38,155 nt of DNA, from contig JAHDBF010000011.1 of NCBI GenBank assembly GCA_020630525.1, forward strand, positions 1 through 38,155. The letters are read 5' to 3'. This DNA comes from Saprospiraceae bacterium. Lineage in GTDB: Bacteria > Bacteroidota > Bacteroidia > Chitinophagales > Saprospiraceae. Shown one piece after another: positions 16,574 through 18,524 of the stretch (its first letter is position 1; each line of letters opens with the position of its first letter). The position numbers and the translations under genes are program-made. The notes beneath the pieces are model-generated. The model made no database searches and was not told the DNA's origin. It worked only from the letters and a program-made list of their open reading frames with translations.

Positions 16574-17323
16574 TTAGCTATTGATAGAAATCTGGTCGCT
16601 TGTTTGACCAAATCTGCGCTCTCTTTTTTGAAAATCTATCAATGCTTCGTATAGATGTTCCTTAGAGAAATCTGGCCACATTACATCTGTAAAATACAAT
16701 TCTGAATATGCCAATTGCCAAAGCAGATAATTACTTATTCTTAATTCTCCGCTTGTCCTTATCATCAACTCGGGGTCAGGAATTCCTGCGGTGGACAAGT
16801 GCGCATTTACTGTATTTTCATCAATATTTTCTGGAGAAAGTTCACCATCATTTACTTTTTGTGCAATAGATTTTGTGGCCTCTACCAATTCCCATCTACT
16901 TGAGTAATTTAAAGCCAATATCAAAGTCATTCGGGTATTGTCTTTGGTGTTTTCGATACAGTCTAGTAAAGCATTTCTGGTATTATCTGGTAGCTTTGAT
17001 ATATCACCAATGGTTTTGAGTTTAATATTATTTTCGGTCAATGTTTTTAACTCTTTTCCAATGGTATCTACCAGTAAATTCATCAATGCACTAACTTCTG
17101 TTTTTGGTCTATTCCAATTTTCTGTTGAAAATGCATACAACGTCAGATATTTAATGCCCAATTCGGCGCAGCCTTCTGTTATTTCTCTAACCGATTTTAC
17201 GCCATTTTTATGTCCGAAAACTCGAAATTTACCTTTAGATTTTGCCCATCTACCATTGCCATCCATAATCACTGCTAGGTGAGAAGGCAATTTATTTAAT
17301 GATATTTTGTCTTTTAATGAAAT
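16574..17323 (-). CDS. uppS: Isoprenyl transferase (undecaprenyl diphosphate synthase), probable ATT start
   Basis: Adds isopentenyl units to farnesyl diphosphate to make undecaprenyl diphosphate, the lipid carrier for cell-wall and polysaccharide building. Motifs: HLAVIMDGNGRWAK with catalytic Asp21 (numbering from the ATT), FGHKNG, TLYAFSTENWNRP and the C-terminal ELMIRTSGELRISNYLLWQ. No ATG occurs near the start. A TTG at 17347 is open but lies inside a -7 promoter box (17345-17352), so it should not be in the mRNA. An ATT at 17323 yields Met-SLKDKISLNKLPSHLAVIMD, the usual length and wording for Bacteroidota UppS. Length would be 249 residues. If the TTG is used instead, eight residues are added. 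bamA follows. Confidence 0.93.
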   Translation of the reverse strand: MSLKDKISLNKLPSHLAVIMDGNGRWAKSKGKFRVFGHKNGVKSVREITEGCAELGIKYLTLYAFSTENWNRPKTEVSALMNLLVDTIGKELKTLTENNIKLKTIGDISKLPDNTRNALLDCIENTKDNTRMTLILALNYSSRWELVEATKSIAQKVNDGELSPENIDENTVNAHLSTAGIPDPELMIRTSGELRISNYLLWQLAYSELYFTDVMWPDFSKEHLYEALIDFQKRERRFGQTSDQISINS

Positions 17324-17344
17324 AACTATTCTTTTTTTATGGTA

Positions 17345-17352
17345 CAAAAATA
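17345..17352 (-). promoter_or_regulatory. -7 promoter box of uppS-bamA
   Basis: On the minus strand the sequence is TATTTTTG, an exact TAnnTTTG match. It lies 21 bases ahead of the proposed ATT start. No convincing -33 element (TTTG/TTG) is visible 19-21 bases upstream. Confidence 0.5.
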
Positions 17353-17450
17353 AAACTATCCATTAGAATCATATTATACGGACTAAGTAAGTTTAGGCTT
17401 ATATTTACCTTTATGGAACAATACGGTTTTTTAGGACCACATTTAGAAAC

Positions 17451-18524
17451 ATGTACGACATAATATTGGCATTTATTAGCGCTTTCTTGCTAAGTTATCT
17501 TGCGATTCCTTCCATTATTTCGATTGCGAGGAGCAAAAACTTGGTTGATGAACCTGGAGAAAGGCGTTCTCATGCAGTGAGTACACCATCATTGGGAGGA
17601 ATCGGAATTTTTGCAGGTGTCATTTTTTCAATAATTCTATGGACTCCTTTTAGTTATTTTAATGACTTGCAGTATATCCTTTGTGCATTTATTATCATCT
17701 TTTTAATAGGAGCAAAAGATGATATTGATCCCATATCTCCAGTTAAGAAATTTGGTGGAGAATTATTTGCCGCTTTTATCTTGGTATTTATTGCTAAGAT
17801 CCAGATAAGTAGTTTTTATGGGATTTTTAATATTTGGGAATTGCCACAGGTATGGAGTTATGTTTTTAGTGTTTTTACGATCATTGTTATCATCAATGCC
17901 TTTAACTTATTGGATGGCATTAATGGTTTATCGGGAAGTATTGGGGTTTTAATATGTTGCACTTTTGGTACTTGGTTTTTGATGATAGACAAAGTAGAGC
18001 TTTCGATTGTGGCTTTTGCAACTGCTGGATCGACGGTTGCTTTTCTGTATTATAATGTCACTCCAGCAAAGATTTTTATGGGTGATACTGGTTCTTTGTT
18101 GATTGGATTGGTATGTTCTATTCTTGCGATCCAATTTATCGAACTCAATAATCTGCAAGTCAATGCACCATACCATATCCGTTCTACACCTAGTGTGGCT
18201 ATTGGGATATTGATATTGCCATTATTTGATACATTGCGGGTATTTATCATCAGAATATCGAAAGGGAGATCTCCATTTTCTCCAGATCAAAACCACATAC
18301 ATCACCTGTTGTTAAAAACTGGATTGACACATATGCAGTCTACTGGTGTCCTGTTATTTGTAAACGTATGTTTTATCTTAATTGCGCTTTATTTACAAAA
18401 TTTGGGGACTGAATGGTTGCTATTTATCATCACATGTTTAGCTTTAGTTTTGACTGGAATTTTATTACTGATTAGCAACAGGAAACATTCGGTTTCTTCA
18501 ATAGCAAAAACCTCTAAAATTTGA
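17451..18524 (+). CDS. WecA/MraY-family undecaprenyl-phosphate sugar-1-phosphate transferase
   Basis: A 357-residue polytopic membrane protein that transfers a sugar-1-phosphate, probably GlcNAc-1-phosphate, from UDP-sugar to undecaprenyl phosphate. Diagnostic motifs: DDID at 90-93, NAFNLLDGINGL at 149-160, IFMGDTGS at 208-215 and DQNHIHH at 279-285. The last motif distinguishes the WecA/TagO group from MraY. It would start synthesis of a surface polysaccharide or O-antigen. It is transcribed divergently from uppS, which makes its lipid acceptor's precursor, across a 127-base region (103 bases to the TTG alternative). crcB overlaps its stop. Confidence 0.93.
   Translation: MYDIILAFISAFLLSYLAIPSIISIARSKNLVDEPGERRSHAVSTPSLGGIGIFAGVIFSIILWTPFSYFNDLQYILCAFIIIFLIGAKDDIDPISPVKKFGGELFAAFILVFIAKIQISSFYGIFNIWELPQVWSYVFSVFTIIVIINAFNLLDGINGLSGSIGVLICCTFGTWFLMIDKVELSIVAFATAGSTVAFLYYNVTPAKIFMGDTGSLLIGLVCSILAIQFIELNNLQVNAPYHIRSTPSVAIGILILPLFDTLRVFIIRISKGRSPFSPDQNHIHHLLLKTGLTHMQSTGVLLFVNVCFILIALYLQNLGTEWLLFIITCLALVLTGILLLISNRKHSVSSIAKTSKI

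Follow-up and report, generated by a model that had tools for sequence, protein, structure and literature searches.

A candidate AUU start codon for uppS in a Saprospiraceae bacterium

In a 38,155-nt stretch of a Saprospiraceae genome (contig JAHDBF010000011.1; the whole stretch analysed is hereafter called the window), the usual start position of the gene for undecaprenyl diphosphate synthase (uppS) holds no canonical start codon and is occupied by an AUU. We consider this AUU, at 17321-17323 on the reverse strand, the best-supported start of the gene, ahead of an internal UUG at 17290 and an AUA at 17329, and put the probability of this reading at roughly 0.55. The coding sequence would then extend from 17323 to 16574 (stop codon 16574-16576) and specify 249 amino acids, and uppS would be a new candidate among the known genes with near-cognate starts.

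The uppS frame and its candidate starts

The gene had been named uppS in an earlier reading of the letters alone (the sequence-only reading), and profile searches bear this out. The product matches PF01255 with an E-value of 5.3e-89 and scores above the NCBIfam cut-offs for TIGR00055 and PRK14830; against PRK14838 it reaches 361.5 bits, below that model's cut-off of 417, with profile positions 2-244 aligned to UppS residues 2-246 (numbered from the AUU). A profile score above a curated cut-off together with the MDGNGRW motif places the protein among the cis-prenyltransferases, and D21, N23, R25, and W26 are invariant in the 24 aligned sequences. It is the sole PF01255 match in the genome, and the single-copy gene is expected to be essential, so that some start must work.

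The frame ending at 16574 on the reverse strand is open for 262 codons. Read over its whole length, it contains no ATG before that of the catalytic MDG motif (17266), which agrees with the earlier statement that none exists near the start. From 5' to 3' the candidates are TTG 17347-17345, ATA 17329-17327, ATT 17323-17321, TTG 17290-17288, and the ATG of MDG itself, and no canonical start codon occurs between the promoter box described below and TTG 17290. The positions given in the sequence-only reading for the ATT, for TTG 17347, and for the box, all on the reverse strand, proved exact on re-reading. Its description of 17347 as the only TTG alternative does not hold, because of the second in-frame TTG at 17290 (M-PSHLAVIMDG), and its list of candidates lacked ATA 17329, another in-frame near-cognate start. 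The N-terminal sequence that it offered omits one Ser; the protein reads SLKDKISLNKLP-S-HLAVIMDG.

The distance to MDG is 19 residues from the ATT, 21 from the ATA, 27 from TTG 17347, and 8 from TTG 17290. These distances were set against 139 uppS loci (the 80 named ones are the best 80 of 588 relatives), less L084 (Ns) and L283 (no motif), which were excluded; as L035 and L256 share the same 5'-end sequence, the remaining 137 represent 136 distinct sequences. Over the span of 12-30 residues before MDG, the start was taken as the ATG, else the GTG, else the TTG that came closest to a distance of 19, a rule that gave a start for 133 of the 137 (115 ATG, 9 GTG, and 9 TTG; none in range for L072, L100, L104, and L107). 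The modal distance was 19 residues (70/137; range 12-29), with 21 found twice and 27 never, although the rule skews the count towards 19 and, having searched 12-30 residues only, cannot return a distance of 8 and is silent on TTG 17290. The modal distance supports the claim that the ATT gives the N-terminus and length usual in the family, and the PRK14838 alignment from residue 2 onwards speaks for the AUU as well. The next residue is Ser after the ATT, Val after the ATA, Tyr after TTG 17347, and Pro after TTG 17290; among the 115 uppS genes with an ATG, Ser is the commonest second residue (40), compared with 1 Val, 2 Tyr, and 2 Pro, in a count made with a similar rule, restricted to ATG, that also leans towards 19.

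An ungapped comparison with the five relatives in the genus gave, for the ten codons from 17317 to 17288, 19, 9, and 28 differences at codon positions 1, 2, and 3 (of 50 cells each), which is a coding pattern. For the six codons from 17335 to 17318 the differences were 15, 27, and 21 of 30 (8, 9, and 6 of 10 plus 7, 18, and 15 of 20), with no coding pattern. The five relatives are not independent, so that these counts are descriptive. In our reading, a coding pattern from 17317 onwards suggests that translation began upstream of this position through most of the history of the lineage. The sequence context upstream of each candidate was also ranked among the first-ATG contexts of the genome (570 ORFs taken from their first ATG, which are not proven starts), where GTT 17326 fell at the 78th percentile, the ATT at the 63rd, TTG 17347 at the 60th, the ATA at the 15th, and TTG 17290 at the 12th. 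This score is little informative, since TTG 17347 about equals the ATT and GTT 17326, which is not a candidate, exceeds both.

Promoter box and predicted leader

The box TATTTTTG (17345-17352, reverse strand) matches the Bacteroidota sigma-A -7 element TAHHTTTG exactly and contains TTG 17347, as the sequence-only reading had noted, and a counterpart lies just upstream of uppS in all five genus relatives, i.e., in 6/6 genomes of the genus. Its distance to the ATG in these relatives is 5 nt (L004), 6 nt (L006), 7 nt (L005 and L113), or 16 nt (L003); in the present genome it is 15 nt to the ATA, 21 nt to the ATT, and 54 nt to TTG 17290. The box is not general outside the genus, as an exact match occurs within 40 nt of uppS in only 30 of 108 usable loci (110 in total), genus included, and within 100 nt in 42. 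No further exact TAHHTTTG is found on the reverse strand between 17200 and 17700; a box with one mismatch, TAGTTTTA at 17358-17351, overlaps TATTTTTG. A -33 TTTG or TTG was not noticed at the usual spacing upstream when the sequence was read by eye. In the third of the genome surveyed, a count over 563 ORFs, again taken from their first ATG and not from proven starts, puts the peak of upstream boxes at 15-24 nt, with 6.0 per 1000 gene-positions at 15-19 nt and 5.0 at 20-24 nt vs. 0.4 in a coding control. Both the ATT and the ATA fall inside this peak, and TTG 17290 falls outside it.

In mapped promoters of Flavobacterium johnsoniae the element spans -12 to -5, leaving 4 or 5 nt to the transcription start (PMC6847099), and the -7 element of F. 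psychrophilum is placed alike (PMC9723704). By analogy with these promoters, the 5' end of the uppS mRNA most likely lies near 17340 (predicted transcription start 17339-17340). With transcription starting 4-5 nt after the box, TTG 17347 would probably stay outside the transcript. The box would thus drive transcription of uppS, and the position of the predicted start would give the mRNA an A-rich leader of 16-17 nt (17324-17340) without a Shine-Dalgarno sequence and with an A run at -15 to -9 relative to the ATT. Structure prediction for this leader returned no stable fold and nothing beyond shuffled sequences (z 0.71). It is longer than the leader predicted for any of the five genus relatives, that of L003 being approximately 11-12 nt and the uppS mRNA of the other four (L004, L005, L006, and L113) being predicted to be leaderless or nearly so (0-3 nt).

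Initiation in F. johnsoniae is favoured by an A at -6 and an A run at -15 to -9, and also by an A at -3 (PMC6847099), and ribosomes of the Bacteroidia are reported to fail to recognise Shine-Dalgarno sequences (PMC9976891). Upstream of the ATT, A-6, A-12, and A-13 are present, with G instead of A at -3. The weak codon, the leader without a Shine-Dalgarno sequence, and the missing A-3 count against the AUU. If it is used, the initiator tRNA would pair at 17323 and synthesis would begin Met-Ser-Leu-Lys-Asp, probably with a lower yield per mRNA than from an AUG; this may be merely tolerated or may tune the level of UppS.

Two further routes of initiation were considered and rejected. Frameshifting from the out-of-frame ATGs at 17372 and 17363 fails in that both precede the -7 box and a TAA just beyond the box closes their frame. 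A leaderless start at a 5'-terminal AUA (17340) followed by slippage on the run of seven A residues, in which one extra A restores the register, would still be a non-AUG start and offers no gain over AUA 17329.

Relatives and competing explanations

In all five genus relatives uppS begins with ATG followed by a Ser codon, and each of the 58 relatives scored (59 searched), from the genus and family out to the order, has an ATG, GTG, or TTG 12-25 residues before MDG, so that the missing start rests on one genome. The sequence-only reading had left conservation of the ATT to be checked by DNA-level alignment; with ATG in 5/5 genus relatives, the ATT is not a feature that the genus has conserved, and the AUG would have been lost in this lineage. 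Both MAFFT alignments set the relatives' ATG over AGA 17332 and not over the ATT; ATT TCA would match the relatives' ATG TCN only with a gap of 9 nt, which was chosen by neither alignment.

An assembly error or a minority variant, the true codon being ATG, most simply at 17321-17323, would leave nothing unusual to explain. We regard this as unlikely, though worth keeping in mind: a single base change is enough to remove the whole finding, the genus relatives show ATG plus a Ser codon, and the assembly is in 220 contigs. The genus search yielded no second sequence of the species, its six genomes being this one and the five relatives, which share 71-76% protein identity with it over long matches. 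However, 126 query-contig pairs at ≥50% identity, within the third of the genome surveyed, contained 0 frameshift candidates. Furthermore, 161 reciprocal-best pairs were obtained, of which 100 were kept: in 86 the aligned start coincides with an ATG or has one close by, 7 have GTG or TTG only (including uppS here, through TTG 17347), and 7 have none. Judged by eye, all of these last 7 reflect an ATG just beyond the search range, a miscalled start in the relative, or a shadow frame, and in our reading no other of the 100 pairs lacks a start. The absence of frameshift candidates and of any other startless pair among those compared indicates that the assembly is not generally poor.

If the sequence is correct, the choice lies among codons of the same frame. 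Initiation at the internal UUG (17288-17290) would give a UppS of 238 amino acids without SLKDKISLNKL, which we consider quite unlikely. This genome does appear to use UUG starts elsewhere (crcB, infC, and two frames that we take to be mnmG and gcvH), A is present at -3 and -6, and some UppS families begin nearby, position 2 of PRK14841 aligning with residue 11 and TIGR00055 beginning at residue 12. This start is nevertheless disfavoured by the coding constraint on the codons preceding it, by its distance from the box, beyond the 15-24 nt peak, and by the low rank of its context. In addition, AlphaFold2 predicts residues 1-10 with a mean pLDDT of 90 and short helices at 3-6 and 9-11, so that a start at 17290 would cut away structure predicted to be ordered. 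The AUA at 17327-17329 (M-VISLKDK) also has A-3 and A-6, lies within the box peak, and is only one codon off the relatives' ATG in the alignments. Its second residue and its distance of 21 residues are, however, both rare among uppS genes, its predicted leader of 10-11 nt leaves no place for A-12 or A-13, and its context ranks low; we hold it to be very unlikely. As to UUG 17347, which precedes every other canonical start in the frame and is the one chosen by the ORF tool, its context ranks about as high as that of the AUU, yet it would require a transcript begun further upstream. It lies inside a -7 box found across the genus, no other exact box is available nearby on this strand, its distance of 27 residues is absent among the chosen starts, and the six codons from 17335 to 17318 show no coding pattern, which together make it hardly credible. 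AUU 17323 is therefore best placed by N-terminal length, second residue, and, jointly with the AUA, spacing from the box; the sequence-only reading was right to single it out, although the internal UUG remains a rival that it had overlooked.

Other near-cognate starts, possible meaning, and neighbouring genes

Only one of the 137 scored uppS genes lacks any ATG, GTG, or TTG ahead of MDG, counting back to the preceding stop or over 45 codons, namely that of L107, a distantly related metagenome-assembled genome (MAG) of the Neomarinimicrobiota (NZVQ01000043.1, 1474-1560). Its frame is without these codons from MDG back to an in-frame TAG that appears to end the preceding gene. At 1489, 21 residues ahead of MDG, stands an in-frame ATT with GAGGTG 6 nt upstream, and this uppS also appears to begin at AUU. 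In the family of L107, 20 of 23 genomes match uppS, L107 included. An AUU start in uppS may therefore have evolved on more than one occasion, although L107 is also a single MAG.

AUU starts with reduced or controlled translation are described for infC (encoding IF3) and pcnB of Escherichia coli (PMC9410913, PMC1780047). The uppS candidate resembles these in being a chromosomal gene with an AUU start; it differs in being a lipid-carrier gene of the Bacteroidota without a Shine-Dalgarno sequence, and feedback of the infC type is not in evidence. Ribosome profiling of Staphylococcus aureus detected near-cognate starts in cvfC1 (AUU), infC, ccpN, and citZ (AUA), and in poor medium reporters for cvfC1, ccpN, and citZ reached approximately 10% of the level given by AUG (PMC13009471). 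In the same report an extended Shine-Dalgarno sequence is predicted to direct initiation at three of the four genes (cvfC1, ccpN, and infC), and the starts of cvfC1 and ccpN are conserved between species (PMC13009471). Neither feature is shared by uppS here, which has no extended Shine-Dalgarno sequence and whose AUU is not conserved in relatives. A parallel in kind of argument is lepA of Borrelia burgdorferi and Bacillus licheniformis, for which an AUU start has been predicted (PMC1780047): in both cases the AUU is proposed from sequence alone and restores a full-length conserved protein, although gene and phylum differ and the position of the promoter is added evidence for uppS. Among the literature titles listed for AUU with Bacteroidetes or for the uppS start codon, none dealt with an AUU start in either uppS or the Bacteroidota, and a search combining near-cognate starts with IF3 gave no match. 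With respect to ordinary Bacteroidota uppS (TIGR00055), the protein, its N-terminal length, which is the commonest one, and the -7 box, as in genus relatives, are unremarkable; what differs is the ATT in place of ATG and a predicted leader longer than in the genus relatives.

An AUU-started uppS would be weakly translated, and control by IF3 or by feedback is possible. A bolder proposal, which we think improbable, is that a Bacteroidota gene with a presumably essential role starts at AUU on an A-rich leader without a Shine-Dalgarno sequence and that near-cognate starts, perhaps evolved repeatedly in uppS as L107 would suggest, may keep undecaprenyl-phosphate synthesis low and make UppS output sensitive to the level of IF3. 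If the AUU start is true, a phylum with Shine-Dalgarno-blind ribosomes can still initiate an essential gene at AUU, and uppS would offer a natural case for how ribosomes that work independently of Shine-Dalgarno sequences select near-cognate codons. Gene finders limited to ATG, GTG, and TTG would then misplace such starts; the ORF tool puts the start of uppS, at TTG 17347, within the promoter box of the gene itself.

The divergent neighbour of uppS is a wecA-like glycosyltransferase 4 gene (PF00953; 17451-18524, forward strand), the ATG of which lies 127 nt from the proposed AUU. Each of the five genus relatives has a gap of 602-709 nt between the two genes and, within it, a small open gene, which, as read from the sequence, starts with a lipoprotein-like signal. 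In G001, G003, and G005, bamA and uppS run in one direction and the small gene, wecA, and crcB in the opposite one; the loci of G004 and G002 comprise uppS, the small gene, and wecA. The small gene is absent here from 17324-17450, and a search of the genome, made with no positive control, returned no match. Over its first 40 codons the infC frame of this genome (L114, on contig 49) lacks an ATG, and it likely starts at a TTG (M-AKGRRK); the frame presumed to be gcvH, which lies in the window, has only a TTG near its aligned start. For crcB, at 18521, the alignment points to a TTG as the start, and ATGs follow six and seven codons downstream.
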